Origin: Promethearchaeota archaeon
GTDB lineage: Archaea > Asgardarchaeota > Lokiarchaeia > Sigynarchaeales > SOKP01
DNA: 5,960 nt
Direction: 5' to 3'
Assembly (NCBI GenBank): GCA_016839905.1
Contig: JAEOTJ010000084.1
Location: 1 to 5,960 of the forward strand
The notes under the pieces were generated by a model. It was not told the origin of the DNA and searched no databases. It saw only the letters and a program-made list of their open reading frames with translations. Positions 351 through 5,881 of the stretch are shown here, one piece after another (the first letter of the stretch is position 1; each line of letters begins with the position of its first letter). The position numbers and the translations under genes are program-made.

Positions 351-1058
351 TTAAAATCCATATGATTGATAAGGTAATAAAATATTCAATTTTCCAATAT
401 ATTTTTCTAATTTTTTAAGGAAGATTTTGAATTTCTTTTCATTGAATTTATTATTGTCAAGCTGCAAGACATTAAAACCTAAATTTATTGCAGGAATCAA
501 ATTGTCAATTTTATTATCTATAAAAAGAATCTCTTCAGGATTTTCTTCGACTTGAGATAAAACATATTTGTATATTCTAGAATAGGGTTTCTTAGCTCCA
601 ATTTCATAGGATAAAAAAACTTGGTTATAATTCTTGTCTGGCTGAAATAAATCATAGTACCCTTTTTTACGGTTTATATTTGCCTTTAATCCATAAGTAT
701 TTGAAAGGACGCTTACAGTATAGCCTCTCTGCTTTAGGCTTCTCACCAATGCCCCCATCTCTGGAATGATATTAACAAGATTGTAGCATAAATCTTTCCA
801 AACTTTAATATAAAAATCAATCAATAATTTATTATAATATATCTTATGCCGAATTAAAACACGAATTAATATTTCACGCTCATTAATCTTACTTGTTCTT
901 AGAGAATCGGTATCTTCATTTGTGAAAATCCGGCCAACATATTTAATATCGTGAATATCCTTTATTAGATCACTGAGTTTTTTCAAAACATAAGTTTTCT
1001 CACTTAAGACACCTCCGAAATCAAATATAATATGTTTTATACCCTTTATGAAATTCAT
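351..1058 (-). CDS. HAD-superfamily hydrolase, subfamily IA-like (phosphatase-like)
   Basis: 235 residues, the usual length for a HAD IA phosphatase. Motif I is IIFDFGGVL (10-18), with the likely nucleophile D13. The second Asp of the classical DxD is Gly (G15), as in the 'FDxG' group that includes YihX-like sugar phosphatases. Residues 20-95 form the helical cap. Motif II is VSVLSNT (115-121, S119). Motif III is GAKKP (154-158), the Lys being K157 or K156. Motif IV is ILFIDNKIDN (177-186), where the common DD is D181-N182, with D185 nearby. These define a Mg-dependent phosphohydrolase fold, probably cytoplasmic because there is no signal peptide or membrane helix. The substrate cannot be read from the sequence. 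The basic C-terminal tail (203-223, many Lys) extends past the core. The ATG at 1058 is chosen because it precedes motif I by a normal distance and has AGGG just upstream, although that site is unusually close (2 bases). The frame stays open about 30 codons further upstream without an ATG, GTG or TTG. It stands alone, downstream of the LRR gene across 398 bases. Confidence 0.85.
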   Translation of the reverse strand: MNFIKGIKHIIFDFGGVLSEKTYVLKKLSDLIKDIHDIKYVGRIFTNEDTDSLRTSKINEREILIRVLIRHKIYYNKLLIDFYIKVWKDLCYNLVNIIPEMGALVRSLKQRGYTVSVLSNTYGLKANINRKKGYYDLFQPDKNYNQVFLSYEIGAKKPYSRIYKYVLSQVEENPEEILFIDNKIDNLIPAINLGFNVLQLDNNKFNEKKFKIFLKKLEKYIGKLNILLPYQSYGF

Positions 1059-1083
1059 TTCCCTAAAATGAAATGAATCATTA

Positions 1084-1145
1084 GCGCCCCTACAATGATT
1101 TAAAGTTATCTTTGCAGAGCGACCATCTGAGCAATAAAAATCATT
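1084..1145 (-). other. GC-richer island with imperfect stem-loop in the probable HAD leader
   Basis: In a sea of A/T this segment is clearly richer in G and C (GCGCCCC, GCAGAGCGACC, CTGAGC). It can fold: AATGATTT (1094-1101) pairs with AAATCATT (1138-1145), TTA (1106-1108) with TAA (1135-1137), TTGC (1112-1115) with GCAA (1131-1134), and AGA (1116-1118) with TCT (1126-1128), closing a 7-base loop. One arm is interrupted by short bulges; the other is nearly continuous (1131-1145). If the TATA-like box at 1190-1196 is used, this would lie in the 5' leader of the HAD mRNA. It could be a cis-regulatory RNA, a small RNA or the remnant of an interspersed element. It matches no riboswitch or tRNA that I recognise. 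Confidence 0.35.
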
Positions 1146-1189
1146 ATTTGAATGTAAATTTAAAATTTAAGAATCACTATTTTTATTAA

Positions 1190-1196
1190 TTTTATA
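1190..1196 (-). promoter_or_regulatory. TATA-like box for the HAD gene
   Basis: On the minus strand the sequence reads CTATAAAATTAAT, containing TATAAAA. An archaeal start site about 25 bases downstream would fall near 1168 and give a leader of roughly 110 bases that includes the structured GC-richer island. It is the best TATA match in this stretch, but AT-rich DNA gives many weak matches. Confidence 0.35.
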
Positions 1197-1264
1197 GGAA
1201 TGCTCACTTTCATAAGCTGGCATTATCAAATAACAAAAAATATTTTCTTTGTATATAGTTCTAG

Positions 1265-1294
1265 TATTATTTTTTGTTCTTTAAATATATTTAT
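1265..1294 (-). repeat. Intergenic motif copy A (core TTTTGTTCTTTAAA on the + strand)
   Basis: This 30-base stretch matches 29 of 30 bases with copy C (3624-3653); the only difference is T1286 against A3645. It lies 207-236 bases upstream of the HAD start and 163 bases beyond the LRR stop. Its function is unknown: it could be an operator, a promoter-proximal element, a processing or termination signal, or a recombination footprint. Confidence 0.6.
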
Positions 1295-1435
1295 TCAATT
1301 TTGCTTCCTCTTTTTTAATATAAAATATATTTTAAATATATAGAACTGGTATGCACTAAATTCAGTAATCTCTTCCCAAAAGTTTTATAAAATGTCAAAA
1401 GGGATATTTATTAATTCATCCATTTTTTTAAATTC

Positions 1436-1477
1436 CCTGCATTTTAAAAAAAAAAACTACCCCCAATAAAATGCAGG
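1436..1477. repeat. Perfect 11-bp inverted repeat enclosing the LRR stop codon
   Basis: The left arm CCTGCATTTTA (1436-1446) is the exact reverse complement of the right arm TAAAATGCAGG (1467-1477). The arms are separated by 20 bases that hold the TAG stop (1459-1457) and most of an 11-T tract. The right arm encodes the last residues of the LRR protein (P-A-F plus part of Y); the left arm is non-coding. Read-through RNA could form a hairpin here, perhaps protecting the 3' end. Confidence 0.6.
1446..1456 (-). terminator. T11 terminator of the LRR gene
   Basis: On the minus strand, 11 consecutive T follow the TAG stop codon with no spacer. A T run this long is a strong intrinsic termination signal for archaeal RNA polymerase. 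It sits in the loop of the 11-bp inverted repeat, so a hairpin would form only in transcripts that pass through it. Confidence 0.6.
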
Positions 1478-3316
1478 AAGATTGTAGAAAAAACTCCTAT
1501 TACTAATTTTTTTAATAGGATTTCCCTCTACATTCAAGAATTTTAAATTTTTAAGATTCCCTAATAAATCTATATTTTTAATATTGTTATAACTTAAATC
1601 TAAATGTTCCAAATTTTCCAAAATAATTAAAGGTTTAATGTTTTCAATCTCATTATAGCTTAAATCTAAATATTTCAAATTCTTCAAGAACTTTAAAGGC
1701 ATTATATTTTTTATCTGATTATGATTCAAAACGAGCTCTTCTAAATTATCTAAAACCTCTATACCCGTTAAATCTAGTATCTTATTACTATGACCACTAA
1801 ATATCCTTAAATCTTTATAATGATGTAATCCAATGATCTCATTAATTCGAGTAAGCTTTGTATGAGAATGTTGCAATCCATTATTCTTGTCTACGAAATG
1901 CAAACCATTCCTTATTAAAACAAAACCAGTTTTGAAACTTCTTAATGCATTTTTAAACAATTGCATTAAAACTGGATTTTTTTTAAATTTATTTTTAATT
2001 AAGTAAAAAATACTATGAACAAATTTCCATTTATCCTCATCATAATCTTTAGAATAAAAACGATATGCTGTCAGATCTACTTTTTGAAGGATCTCTTTTA
2101 TTAATTTAAAAATATAATATTTAGGAAATTTACTTGTTAAGATATGAAAAGCTTCCAAAGCACCCGTATTATTTTTTCTCAAGTTTAAAACAATATTTCT
2201 AATTAATGAGTTATTTATATCATCACTTTTATAATTTAATAAGAATATTAGAAGAGACTCTGATTTAAAGCCTTTTTTTATAACTATATCATAATTTAAA
2301 TTTTTTAAAAAAATATCTCTTAAACCAAATTGATTACTATAATCTTTTAGCCAAATTAAATTAAATATATTCTTTAAAACTTTATCAAATTCTTTTTTTA
2401 TTAAAATAAAATTAATGCACTCAATATTATTTGATTGAAAGGATTCATAAATCGCATTTTTTAACAAATCTAATACTTTTTTTTTAAATGTTGTTCTTAA
2501 TTTAACCTTCTTTAATGCAATATAAAGAGATAATCTCCGTATTAATTTTAATTCTTGAATTAAATCTAAATTGAGATATTCCAATAAGACATTTATTTCT
2601 TCTTCATTTAAATCCATTAAATAATTTTCATTAATTAAAAATTCTTGAGTTGGAAGGTAACCAGTAGAAAATCTCCTAAAAACTTCATCCTTGTATGCCT
2701 TTTTAGCTAAAGAGTCGCCAACTTGAGATAATTTACGCAAAAGAGGAAAAGCTAAATTTCTATGTAGTAGCCTTGAATCATAATCATTTTCAAACCATAC
2801 TTGTAAATTTGAACAATGACCTTTAAACTCTTGCTCCGGAGAGATTGAGTGATCGCTTTGCTCTCCTTTAAATTTTTTATAAATCTCAGCGGCTTCATCA
2901 ACAGAATCTATTTGATCATAAAGATTTATATCTTTTTTATGAATATTAAGAATTAAATGCATACATATTATAAATTTTTCTTTATTGATGTATATAACAG
3001 TCTCACCTCTCTCTAACTTAAGAGTCAAGAATTTATTGAGTTTAAATTTCTTAGATTTTATAATCTCAACAGGAAAAGCATACTTATATCTTAGATCATA
3101 ATCGCGTTGGAAATCTTTTATTTTCTTACTTGATGAAATTAAATAAAGATAATTATTTGATGGGCGATAAATTCTATAGATATTACTCAGATTAAATGGG
3201 GATTTCATAAAAAATGGCCTACCTAAAATCCCTTGTGGTTTAACTATATAAACACCCTGACTTTTCTGATCACATCGTCTAAAATTTCCTGAACAAAAAA
3301 AGTCCTCTTGATCCAT
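1457..3316 (-). CDS. Leucine-rich-repeat protein with Asgard-type N-terminal module
   Basis: 619 residues with no signal peptide or clear membrane helix, so probably cytoplasmic. Residues about 1-150 form a mixed alpha/beta domain with the run LTLKLERGETVIYINKEKF (97-115) followed by DSVDEAAEIY (137-146). Residues 158-232 contain a conserved-looking block (GHCSNLQVWFENDYDSRLLH, NLAFPLLRKL, GDSLAKKAY, RRFSTGYLPTQEFLINENYL) that I recall from many archaeal, especially Asgard, LRR proteins. Residues 235-470 are largely helical and Lys-rich. The C-terminus has a degenerate repeat (about 500-521) and four clear 22-residue repeats (522-543, 544-565, 566-587, 588-609) of the form LxNLxxLxLxxNxIxxIxxL, the SDS22-like type, ending with a short cap (FYWG). 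LRRs present a curved surface for protein binding; the partner is unknown. The start ATG at 3316 has no ribosome-binding site but has a TATA-like box about 46 bases upstream, so a short leader is likely. M37 (ATG at 3208) is an alternative start. It is monocistronic by its terminator and spacing. Confidence 0.85.
   Translation of the reverse strand: MDQEDFFCSGNFRRCDQKSQGVYIVKPQGILGRPFFMKSPFNLSNIYRIYRPSNNYLYLISSSKKIKDFQRDYDLRYKYAFPVEIIKSKKFKLNKFLTLKLERGETVIYINKEKFIICMHLILNIHKKDINLYDQIDSVDEAAEIYKKFKGEQSDHSISPEQEFKGHCSNLQVWFENDYDSRLLHRNLAFPLLRKLSQVGDSLAKKAYKDEVFRRFSTGYLPTQEFLINENYLMDLNEEEINVLLEYLNLDLIQELKLIRRLSLYIALKKVKLRTTFKKKVLDLLKNAIYESFQSNNIECINFILIKKEFDKVLKNIFNLIWLKDYSNQFGLRDIFLKNLNYDIVIKKGFKSESLLIFLLNYKSDDINNSLIRNIVLNLRKNNTGALEAFHILTSKFPKYYIFKLIKEILQKVDLTAYRFYSKDYDEDKWKFVHSIFYLIKNKFKKNPVLMQLFKNALRSFKTGFVLIRNGLHFVDKNNGLQHSHTKLTRINEIIGLHHYKDLRIFSGHSNKILDLTGIEVLDNLEELVLNHNQIKNIMPLKFLKNLKYLDLSYNEIENIKPLIILENLEHLDLSYNNIKNIDLLGNLKNLKFLNVEGNPIKKISNRSFFYNLPAFYWG
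1490..1753 (-). repeat. Tandem 66-bp leucine-rich-repeat units inside the coding region
   Basis: Four 22-codon units occupy this stretch. DNA similarity remains visible: the 13-base string CTTAAATCTAAAT (+ strand) occurs at 1593-1605 and again at 1659-1671, exactly 66 bases apart, with similar flanks. Recent unit duplication, or strong codon constraint on the LDLSYN segment, would explain it. Confidence 0.7.
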
Positions 3317-3357
3317 TTTGAAAATTGTAAGTAATTAAAACTTTAAATTAAAAATTA

Positions 3358-3366
3358 TCTATATAA
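3358..3366 (-). promoter_or_regulatory. TATA-like box for the LRR gene
   Basis: The minus strand reads GATTATATAGAT, centred about 46 bases before the LRR start codon. A start site about 25 bases downstream of the box would leave a leader of roughly 20 bases without a Shine-Dalgarno site. Motif copy B lies immediately upstream of it (3378-3399), in the position expected for an operator or activator site. Confidence 0.4.
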
Positions 3367-3377
3367 TCACTATTTTA

Positions 3378-3399
3378 TTTTTGTTCTTTAAAAATATTT
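3378..3399 (-). repeat. Intergenic motif copy B, upstream of the LRR promoter
   Basis: These 22 bases are identical to 3630-3651 (copy C) and match copy A (1271-1292) with one difference. On the minus strand the copy lies 62-83 bases before the LRR start and just upstream of the TATA-like box. That position suggests a regulatory site, although copies A and C are not placed in the same way. Confidence 0.6.
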
Positions 3400-3476
3400 G
3401 ATTAATTAAAATAAAAAATCTTGTTTCCTATAAATATTTAGTAAAAAAATGATTTCGGAGTAAAAAGGATATTTTT

Positions 3477-3686
3477 ATGAAAAAAAGAAAGGAGAAAAGG
3501 TTTCCATTACGTATCAATAATAGTCCTTATAGTCGTCAAAAAAAAACAAAAACAAAATTATCTTCAAATAATTTTAATAGAAACAACTACTCAAACAATT
3601 ATCTTTACGTAATAGATAGAATTTATTATTTTTTGTTCTTTAAAAATATTTATGTTTTTTTAAAAAAGTCTAATCTTTATTTTTAA
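3477..3686 (+). CDS. Doubtful small basic protein (69 aa)
   Basis: In favour: an ATG preceded by AAAAGGAT with a 7-base gap, which is a good Shine-Dalgarno arrangement, and a strongly basic first half (MKKRKEKRF, RQKKTKTK). Against: its composition (Lys, Asn, Tyr, Phe, Ile) is what random AT-rich DNA gives; residues about 50-59 are simply the translation of motif copy C; it is antisense to the last 17 bases of the regulator gene; and it opposes all nearby genes. I recognise no family. It is listed so that the frame is not overlooked, not because it is convincing. Confidence 0.18.
   Translation: MKKRKEKRFPLRINNSPYSRQKKTKTKLSSNNFNRNNYSNNYLYVIDRIYYFLFFKNIYVFLKKSNLYF
3624..3653 (-). repeat. Intergenic motif copy C, just after the regulator gene
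   Basis: This 30-base stretch matches copy A at 29 of 30 positions and shares 22 exact bases with copy B. On the minus strand it begins 17 bases after the regulator's TAG stop. Copies A and C lie on either side of the LRR gene in direct orientation. Its part TATTTTT...AAAAATA could form a weak A/T-only stem, but copy A does not preserve that pairing. Confidence 0.6.
3644..3667 (-). terminator. Possible T-rich terminator of the regulator gene
   Basis: Two bases after the TAG stop the minus strand has six T (3667-3662), then A-rich spacer, then TATTTTT inside motif copy C. This is compatible with an archaeal T-tract terminator, but the runs are short for so AT-rich a sequence. Confidence 0.35.
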
Positions 3687-4689
3687 CTTCTGTTAAGATT
3701 TTTTCTAAATCTTCGTCATCATATGGCTTATATATTATTCCATTTGCTTCAGTTTCTTGTAAGAGTTGTCCAACATCATCAATCGCCGTGGCAGTAAAGA
3801 AATATACAATAATATCCTTAAAGTCATTACTAGATTTAATTCGCTTGCATACTTGTTTTCCTTGTATGTCAGGGAGGTCTATATCTAAAAGTATAGCTTT
3901 TGGCTTAGAGCTTTTTATATCGATAAGCGCGTCTTTAGGATTATTAAAAGCTTTTACTTTTTTATTCCTGGCCTTATAAAAAGCAGAAATTAAAGTATTA
4001 ACGGTCTCATCATCATCTATGATGAGTATATCATATTCCTTTTCAGGTTCCAGGCGATCCTTGAAATGGCTTTCTATTTTATTTTCCAAGGCCTTCTCAT
4101 GTTTAAGAACCTCGTCTAAAAGATTTATAAACTTTAATTTTTCAGTGCTAATTAAGTTTTTTAGAAATGTAATATCTACTTCGTTACTTAAATTATTTTC
4201 AATTTTTTTAAAAGTTATTTCCAATTCTGTTTGGGTTAAATTAATATACCCTTTTAATGGGGTTAATGATTCTCTACAACTTTTTGCGATTTCAGAGTTA
4301 AGAAATAATTGTTTCTCTAATATATCTTTAATGAGTTTAAAAATATCTTCAAATCTTAGGTTAGCTTTTAATATAAATAATCTCTCGATGATAAATTTTG
4401 CTAAAACAATGCTAAACCGTGAAAATTCCGATAGGTTTCTATTGTGTTTTTTTACAAATTCTTGCATTTCAGACTTTAAATCATTACTTAAAGAAAAACT
4501 TATATTTTTATCTACAGTTCCAGGATATATTTTTTCTCCTTTCATCCATTTTTTATAGTTTTCAGTGATGGTACCATGCCAAATAGCCTTTTTTCCAGTT
4601 TCCGCTTCAAATCGAGCCCTCATTTCTTCACTCATTTGCTCTGAAGATAGATCTTTATCTTGATCAATTTTATTATTTGATGATTTCAT
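3670..4689 (-). CDS. Response-regulator-type protein: RHH-like segment, helical linker, receiver domain
   Basis: 339 residues, with no signal peptide or membrane helix. Residues 20-60 include an ETGKKAIWHGTIT motif that I recall preceding ribbon-helix-helix (RHH) domains in Asgard proteins. Residues 62-104 fit an RHH fold: strand NISFSLS (62-68), helix A (69-82), turn, helix B (86-104), so DNA binding as a dimer is likely. Residues 115-212 are helical, with a stretch like a kinase H-box (RESLTPLKGY, 139-148). Residues 218-337 are a complete CheY-like receiver: acidic pair D225/D226, phospho-acceptor D269 in LLDIDLP, T299 in FFTA, and K321 before P322. It should therefore be phosphorylated by a histidine kinase, but none is encoded here. 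Unusually, the receiver is C-terminal to the putative DNA-binding part. The start at 4689 is the only ATG, GTG or TTG after an in-frame stop at 4740-4738, but the best ribosome site (AAAGGAG, GGAG at 4714-4711) is 21 bases away. It lies 78 bases after the membrane-protein gene. Confidence 0.85.
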   Translation of the reverse strand: MKSSNNKIDQDKDLSSEQMSEEMRARFEAETGKKAIWHGTITENYKKWMKGEKIYPGTVDKNISFSLSNDLKSEMQEFVKKHNRNLSEFSRFSIVLAKFIIERLFILKANLRFEDIFKLIKDILEKQLFLNSEIAKSCRESLTPLKGYINLTQTELEITFKKIENNLSNEVDITFLKNLISTEKLKFINLLDEVLKHEKALENKIESHFKDRLEPEKEYDILIIDDDETVNTLISAFYKARNKKVKAFNNPKDALIDIKSSKPKAILLDIDLPDIQGKQVCKRIKSSNDFKDIIVYFFTATAIDDVGQLLQETEANGIIYKPYDDEDLEKILTEVKNKD

Positions 4690-4744
4690 TATTAAGTATT
4701 CAATGGATTTCTCCTTTATTAAAATTCTCTTCCTTTTTTATTTC

Positions 4745-4767
4745 AATAAAATAATAAGAAAACAAAA
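4745..4767 (-). terminator. Possible T-rich terminator after the membrane operon
   Basis: Right after the stop of the four-helix membrane protein the minus strand runs TTTTGTTTTCTTATTATTTT. T tracts broken by single other bases can terminate archaeal transcription, which would separate the regulator from the upstream operon. The short 78-base gap leaves little room for a new promoter, so read-through is equally possible. Confidence 0.3.
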
Positions 4768-5274
4768 TTAAAAAGGCATTTGGGGGGACTTTTTTTCAGT
4801 TAATATATAAAGTTCATCCCTTTTTGATTTCTTTTTAATTTTAAGAGGTTTAAATCTATTTCTAATTAAATTAAGCATCTTCAGACCTAAAACAATTAAA
4901 ATAATCCATACAATATTTAATGATGCAGATATGCTTGATCCTTTGATGACAATATTTATATATAAGACGCCAAATCCATTCATTGGCAAAAATAATGTAA
5001 AAATACTATGCCCTACACTAAATACGAGGATTAAAAAGCCGATATATACAAACCCGATAATTAACCGGATATTAGTTCTTTTATCAAAAAGACCGAATAG
5101 AGAATAAATAATTACATACAAGATTCCCATAATGAGGATCATATTTGCATTAAAAATGGTTTCAATGGGAATTGCGGGCATTATTCTAGAGATGAAATAA
5201 TAAGGTAATACAATTCCAATAAAAATCGAAAAGATTATATTTCTTACAAGAGTCTTAATATTAATAATGTCCAT
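4768..5274 (-). CDS. Four-helix integral membrane protein of unknown function
   Basis: 168 residues. Hydrophobic segments at about 12-33, 40-63, 69-95 and 115-137 indicate four membrane helices. The C-terminal tail (138-168) is rich in Lys and Arg (NRFKPLKIKKKSKRD), so by the positive-inside rule the tail, and with four helices also the N-terminus, should face the cytoplasm. There are no catalytic motifs, conserved His/Asp/Cys patterns or transporter signatures that I can name. The start at 5274 is well supported: GGAGGTG lies 8 bases before the ATG, within the last codons of the upstream gene, and only one base separates that gene's stop from this start. It is therefore translationally coupled to the single-pass protein and may form a membrane complex with it. 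A run of six C close to the 3' end codes for S-P and does not break the frame. Confidence 0.75.
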   Translation of the reverse strand: MDIINIKTLVRNIIFSIFIGIVLPYYFISRIMPAIPIETIFNANMILIMGILYVIIYSLFGLFDKRTNIRLIIGFVYIGFLILVFSVGHSIFTLFLPMNGFGVLYINIVIKGSSISASLNIVWIILIVLGLKMLNLIRNRFKPLKIKKKSKRDELYILTEKKSPQMPF

Positions 5275-5275
5275 T

Positions 5276-5881
5276 TTAGAACACCTCCTCCGTAGGCAAC
5301 TGATGAGAGACCTCTAATTTAATATTATATAGACCATAAGATAAAGAAAAATCACCTTCAAATAGAATATATTCTGAATTATTCAATGCGATTAAAGTAT
5401 CTAAATTAAAATCTTTTAAATTAAAATCGAAATTATATTCAATTTTAGTTCTTTCATCTACAAGAATCCTGTCTCTATTTATTTTCAATTCTTTTATTAA
5501 TAAATCATCATCAGTATAAAACTTTATATTTAAAATAAATGCGGTGATCTCTGTTTTAGATGTAATGGAGAAATCTCCATTTAAAGATATTGTTTCATTA
5601 TCTTGAGAATTCATTTGCATTTCCCCAAAGTCTACATCGATTTGAGCCAAGGACCAAATGATATAACTATTATATGCTACTAAGGAAGCGTATGATGTAA
5701 AAATGATTATAAAAATTAGTATGCTTGCTCTCTTTCTTTTTTTTCTATTTTTTAGCACTTTTTTTTTCTCTCTCTCAACGGAAATATTTGACGTAGAATA
5801 AGAAATGCCTGAAAGATATTTTCTATATTTTTTCTTATCTTTGTCTTTAAACTTTATTTTTTTGTGTGCTATTTTACTCAT
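5276..5881 (-). CDS. Single-pass membrane protein with basic head and outer beta-rich domain
   Basis: 201 residues. Residues 7-51 are extremely basic, with several Lys/Arg clusters (KDKDKKKYRKY, KNRKKRKR). One long hydrophobic segment follows (about 52-79, SILIFIIIFTSYASLVAY...), and then a 120-residue acidic, beta-rich region. This predicts a cytoplasmic basic N-terminus, a membrane anchor and an outward domain. In the outer domain, alternating hydrophobic residues (ETISLNGDFSITSKTEITAF; LIALNNSEYILFEGDFSLSY) suggest an immunoglobulin-like sandwich, possibly resembling LEA/WHy-type domains; that comparison is an inference. No enzyme motif is visible. The ATG at 5881 overlaps the previous gene's end by eight bases (ATGAGTAA), and the one-base gap to the next gene places it in a tight operon. 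GAGGAG 13 bases upstream may serve as its ribosome site. The basic head could touch nucleic acid or acidic phospholipids. Confidence 0.75.
   Translation of the reverse strand: MSKIAHKKIKFKDKDKKKYRKYLSGISYSTSNISVEREKKKVLKNRKKRKRASILIFIIIFTSYASLVAYNSYIIWSLAQIDVDFGEMQMNSQDNETISLNGDFSITSKTEITAFILNIKFYTDDDLLIKELKINRDRILVDERTKIEYNFDFNLKDFNLDTLIALNNSEYILFEGDFSLSYGLYNIKLEVSHQLPTEEVF
5282..5290 (-). promoter_or_regulatory. Strong Shine-Dalgarno site for the gene starting at 5274
   Basis: The minus strand reads GAGGAGGTG inside the final codons (E-E-V) of the upstream gene, with eight bases between GGAGGT and the ATG. It is the clearest ribosome-binding site in the window and fixes the downstream start. 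Confidence 0.8.

Follow-up and report, generated by a model that had tools for sequence, protein, structure and literature searches.

A short intergenic motif in three copies beside an Asgard response-regulator gene, most likely a lineage-private cluster of predicted transcription-factor binding sites

Described archaeal sites and regulators, and the regulator of this contig

Archaeal regulators are described in an excerpt of PMC12993045 as binding operators near promoter elements, and Lokiarchaeum GC14_75 encodes, according to a passage of PMC5847659, four proteins with an Arc-type ribbon-helix-helix (RHH)-HisKA-REC architecture. Among the open-licence papers listed in our literature search (for one query, part of the results) we saw no Asgard cis-regulatory motif, and little is known about single-gene control in these archaea, which are the nearest relatives of eukaryotes known among prokaryotes. 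We have analysed a window of 5,960 nucleotides (the whole stretch, contig JAEOTJ010000084.1) in which three copies of a short motif (A, B and C) lie in the gaps of a gene row. Like the operators or UAS of archaeal transcription factors, these copies are short, repeated, sharply bounded and placed in gaps, with B beside a TATA-like box and with a linked regulator gene; unlike them, A and C are far from starts, the motif is not a clean palindrome and the binder is only a candidate. This kind of element is ordinary. The interest comes from its place next to the gene of a probable DNA-binding response regulator in an Asgard archaeon, a group where such sites have barely been studied, and from the fact that a repeated site and a specific candidate DNA-binding response regulator make a directly testable pair.

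The window has a GC content of 25%, and T runs are common in it. The named relatives nearest to its genes belong to Promethearchaeota/Lokiarchaeota, with about 27-55% identity across the aligned portion. The C-terminal end of a histone-like ORF is found on the plus strand (3-83; Pfam CBFD_NFYB_HMF, E 0.0029, below the curated cut-off). On the minus strand there follow a HAD-family hydrolase gene (351..1058, from the ORF and Pfam), a possible second target of the motif; a gene of 619 aa for a leucine-rich repeat (LRR) protein (1457..3316), with an N-terminal region common to Asgard proteins and C-terminal leucine-rich repeats; the response-regulator gene (3670..4689, 339 aa), whose product we describe as RHH-like/HisKA-like/REC and regard as a candidate motif binder; and two genes without a match in the Pfam scan (4768-5274 and 5276-5881), the protein of the second being matched in 4 of 225 Asgard genomes (E <= 0.001). 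No RNA family or tRNA was detected in the window.

Compared with the Lokiarchaeum regulators, as far as the passage of PMC5847659 describes them, the regulator of the window is alike in having a REC domain and in aligning with such proteins over its full length, and the phospho-acceptor Asp of this domain, D269, is invariant in the alignment. It differs in its HisKA-like and RHH-like parts. Pfam HisKA is matched by 23 of the 24 aligned members, the exception being the window protein, in which the phospho-acceptor His was not found and Lys136 stands where His is at least 90% conserved; at the presumed DNA-contact strand of the RHH domain it reads NISFSL instead of RISLYV, a change seen on comparison with 23 relatives. 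With a family profile of the N-terminal 80 residues the first three PDB matches were 56B, ORF56 and ArtA (E 0.0087, 0.022 and 0.030), which we take to be RHH proteins, and non-RHH chains start at E 0.11. Pfam RHH_1 had weak matches in 5 of 11 family pieces (best E 0.0073) and in 4 of 24 full proteins, and none in the window regulator at E <= 1. Since the structure models have two helices in the RHH region (45-57 and 63-81 in that of a family member, after the presumed strand) with no strand assigned, and since the matches listed in the fold searches cover the REC part, the RHH assignment draws on the sequence profiles and on PMC5847659; an N-terminal RHH domain is in this way supported but not proven.

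The three copies, chance and duplication

Copy A is located at 1265..1294, copy B at 3378..3399 and copy C at 3624..3653, all on the minus strand and in a single orientation relative to the minus-strand genes, positions and orientation being as the first-pass annotation had them. Copy A, which reads ATAAATATATTTAAAGAACAAAAAATAATA on the gene-sense strand, follows the LRR stop at a distance of 163-192 nt and precedes the start of the HAD gene by 207-236 nt. Copy B lies 62-83 nt upstream of the LRR-gene start, and copy C 17-46 nt past the stop of the response-regulator gene and 308-337 nt upstream of the LRR start. A window scan found TTTTGTTCTTTAAA exactly at 1272-1285, 3379-3392 and 3631-3644, on the plus strand each time, and on the gene strand every copy is built of an A/T stretch, then TTTAAAGAAC, then an A-rich stretch. 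The same annotation had claimed a match of A and C at 29 of 30 positions (97%), a 22-mer common to B and C and a core absent from the rest of the window, and all of this was confirmed: the 22-mer stands unchanged at 3378 and 3630 and differs by a single mismatch in copy A, at 1271, and GTTCTTTAA is present three times, both strands together, without any further copy in the window. It had also placed the copies outside convincing genes, which holds for the five long minus-strand ORFs. Copy C does fall within a plus-strand ORF of 69 codons (3477-3686), rejected as a gene; it has no credible relative, its 11 weak matches in 225 genomes all containing internal stops and being taken as low complexity.

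The mean number of GTTCTTTAA occurrences in shuffled windows was 0.27, versus three in the real one, and one shuffle of 200 reached three (both strands); not one of 200 shuffles contained three copies of the 22-mer at up to three mismatches. The motif also stood out against simulated gaps with the length and composition of the real ones (Markov orders 1-3, 2000 each), a design that corrects for the choice of motif. No 22-mer was found three times at <=1 mismatch in any of these 6000 intergenic sets, and a pair appeared in 8. Real DNA was used as a control as well. When only gaps were considered, 134 six-kb segments from two related genomes included one with three copies and two with two copies; the single three-copy segment is a tandem array with a spacing of 33 nt, and dispersed intergenic triples numbered 0 of 134. 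With coding sequence included, at least three copies of a 22-mer were present in 2 of 125 six-kb segments from fetched related loci, both inside ORFs, and two copies in 31 of them. The 40-nt flanks outside the common block have identities of 0.23-0.48, versus 0.34 for random sequence. Within this contig the repeat is non-random and sharply bounded, and it recurs in gaps far beyond chance.

Such a repeat could have arisen by copying of a 22-30 nt unit within the region, as a lineage-specific dispersed short repeat or as the functionless relic of a micro-duplication. The near identity of A and C, which are far from any start, would be explained in this way, and the absence of enrichment in relatives is compatible with it. 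However, identity in the flanks is close to the random level from the very edge of the block, and B cannot be a fresh copy of a 30-nt unit because it has only 22 nt in common with the others, so that we consider an origin of this kind rather unlikely, although deserving of weight. A and C, as the closest pair of copies and flanking the LRR gene, might also be the direct repeats of a recombination event or cassette ends around this gene, or an assembly artefact at a common k-mer, given that 22-30 nt lies within the k-mer range of assemblers. Against this, no recombinase domain was found in the six ORFs scanned with Pfam, the third copy lies inside the putative cassette, and the genes to either side, regulator, LRR and HAD alike, have uninterrupted reading frames and Asgard relatives; we regard cassette ends or an artefact as highly improbable.

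Relatives, viruses and transcript ends

Outside the contig, the motif is at control level. At <=1 mismatch, 11 of 227 Asgard genomes contained the 22-mer, once each, versus 8 matches for the reversed control, and the 16-nt core had 39 matches in 32 of 225 Asgard genomes versus 35 for its control, never more than two per genome. With up to 2 mismatches allowed, 13 of 19 related genomes had a match, with a maximum of 4 (control maximum 5). The level and low number of the 16-nt core rule out an Asgard-wide element, be it promoter, terminator or repeat, and the high copy number of a dispersed Asgard repeat was not seen in these 225 genomes, so the dispersed repeat that had been suggested at first found no backing among the relatives. 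With the relatives at control level, we take the repeated motif to be private to this lineage or to the locus, and the most likely reading is a lineage-private cluster of short sites, predicted to bind a transcription factor.

We also looked across 800 kb from two related genomes for dispersed intergenic 12-mers present at least four times; one genome had none, and the other had three words resembling tRNA pieces and two weak words. A viral origin was considered and discarded; the one IMG/VR match (L080), phage-like by eye and in an unrelated context, was taken as chance.

Because the copies lie between genes that follow one another on one strand, they might also be a transcript-end or RNA-level element, i.e., a terminator or a processing or decay signal. 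C begins 17 nt past the regulator stop and A 163 nt past the LRR stop, and copies are found in both long same-strand gaps. This option, also raised in the first-pass annotation, is disfavoured by our results: RNA hairpins in the copies are not significant (z -1.66, 0.47 and -0.60), a scan of bacterial type found no terminator-like site in 1050-3700, and B is away from a gene end. The combination of hairpin and T run that makes an intrinsic terminator was not detected at the copies, with the reservation that archaeal termination may take place on T runs alone; T runs are widespread in a contig of such low GC. A role at transcript ends is in our opinion very unlikely. A strong hairpin (-17.3 kcal/mol, z -4.84) is located at 1434-1479, where it spans the LRR stop codon and has a T run in its inner part.

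Promoter context and a candidate binder

The sequence TATATA at 3360..3365 (minus strand) may serve the LRR gene as its TATA box; 12 nt separate it from copy B, and its start lies 23 nt from that of the GTTC in this copy. Another putative box, TATATA at 1252..1257 (minus strand), has a spacing of 24 nt to the GTTC in copy A, an agreement noticed post hoc, and the corresponding place at copy C has TATCTAT only, without TATATA. Because there are twelve TATATA in the window, we roughly estimate this post hoc coincidence of A and B to be worth about one in a hundred. A further 12-mer, AATCACTATTTT, located beside B (3365-3376), recurs at 1172-1183 above the HAD gene, and is thus common to the gaps before the LRR and HAD genes; simulations produce such a shared 12-mer in 5-6% of cases, so that we treat it as a hint only. 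More generally, expectation maximisation over 397 upstream regions of Lokiarchaeia gave best motifs that are not TATA-like, and 65 tRNA leaders (introns allowed, some of the calls possibly false) have conserved A/T blocks.

It could be argued that the motif is itself the core promoter, a BRE followed by TTTAAA as TATA box, from which transcripts would start some 25 nt downstream of every copy in gene-sense direction. TTTAAA is indeed within every copy, and the distance to the TATATA block is near the TATA-to-start distance, given as about 26-28 nt in an excerpt of PMC8553660. However, such an element ought to precede the other genes of the contig as well and to be present in relatives, and neither the rest of the window nor the relatives, at control level, provide such copies. 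In addition, we know of no core element that matches GAAC below a TATA box, and altogether we find this explanation quite improbable.

The reading that we favour, to which we give a probability of roughly 45% in view of the site statistics and the profile hits, is that the three copies are local sites for a transcription factor acting on the LRR gene and perhaps on the HAD gene, with the neighbouring regulator as candidate binder. Among the original suggestions the operator or upstream element fits best, with B ending 62 nt before the LRR start and 12 nt from TATATA; 62-83 nt above a start is within the range of archaeal activator or operator sites. A and C, at 207 and 308 nt above the nearest start, are farther away than is usual for archaeal operators. 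All three would be operators or upstream activating elements for one sequence-specific transcription factor, which would contact the GTTC/GAAC core between its T and A tracts. Copy B, just above the presumed TATA box, would set the expression of the LRR gene, C would be an additional site in that gap, more distant from the start, and A would be a third, located in the following gap ahead of the HAD gene. The phosphorylation state of the RHH-like response regulator, whose gene ends 17 nt from copy C, would switch binding. As with the TATA boxes, we infer the binding, the identity of the binder and the direction of regulation. The gap upstream of the regulator itself (4690-4767) has no copy of the motif, so this gene is not autoregulated through it at that place.

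The choice of the neighbouring regulator as first candidate for A to C comes from palindromic sites found above related regulators, in 79 loci (852,665 bases) that were fetched by similarity to the regulator family and not by site. The palindrome TTTGTRTACAAA has 10 sites in this sequence, of which 9 fall in the 320 nt that precede the RHH start of a regulator-class gene, a zone that makes up 5.5% of the total (nominal 4e-11, weakened by orthology and AT-rich gaps). In Lokiarchaeia RHH-HisKA-REC genes the sites L012:5779, L025:5692, L029:5797, L032:5776, L039:5825, L041:5735, L050:5798, L065:5751 and L037:1547 lie 214-280 nt before the RHH start. Most of the 148 regulator-class gene matches in the 79 loci are without an exact TTTGTRTACAAA. 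Thirteen whole genomes, most of them chosen because one of their loci had the site, contained 61 raw matches versus 27 for the control (both strands, palindromes counted twice), and 17 of the 35 rows checked, duplicates included, were above regulator-class genes. The association is weakened because the loci are orthologous and the gaps AT-rich; another palindrome, TTTTTATAAAAA, is also near regulator-class genes 9 out of 22 times (the upstream counts for both palindromes took in all 79 loci). We consider TTTGTRTACAAA a candidate operator of RHH-HisKA-REC genes in Lokiarchaeia, and its placement suggests that such regulators work through sites close by. The A-B-C motif has no clear similarity to it, and only a TTTTTGT...AAAAA frame is in common.

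A bolder version would have the motif as the operator of an RHH-REC regulator with a changed DNA-contact strand and histidine, in a rewired Asgard phosphorelay in which TTTTTGTTCTTTAAAAA replaced TTTTTGTGTACAAAAA; regulator and site would have co-evolved and the pair would govern an Asgard-specific LRR gene. We consider this speculative and distinctly unlikely. If true, it would provide a regulator/cis-site pair of Asgard two-component signalling, of which we found none among the open-licence papers listed in our literature search.

Among 67 regulator genes of relatives, 7 have GTTCTTT in their upstream region, and a single conserved block accounts for six of these. It is gene-sense there and antisense in the window, and because of this opposite orientation it was not counted as support. 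The 67 upstream regions exclude, from the 79 loci, L068, L070 to L079 (lower-ranked, mostly partial matches) and L049, a regulator relative on a contig binned as Anoxychlamydiales bacterium, which may be a misbinned Asgard contig.

The LRR protein, for its part, was matched in 89 of 225 Asgard genomes (E <= 1e-10), and its database matches bear LRR, TPR or small-GTPase domains. Its residues about 85-260, which have no Pfam match, are covered by most of the best matches listed, and this region looks like an Asgard-specific, much-paralogised domain.
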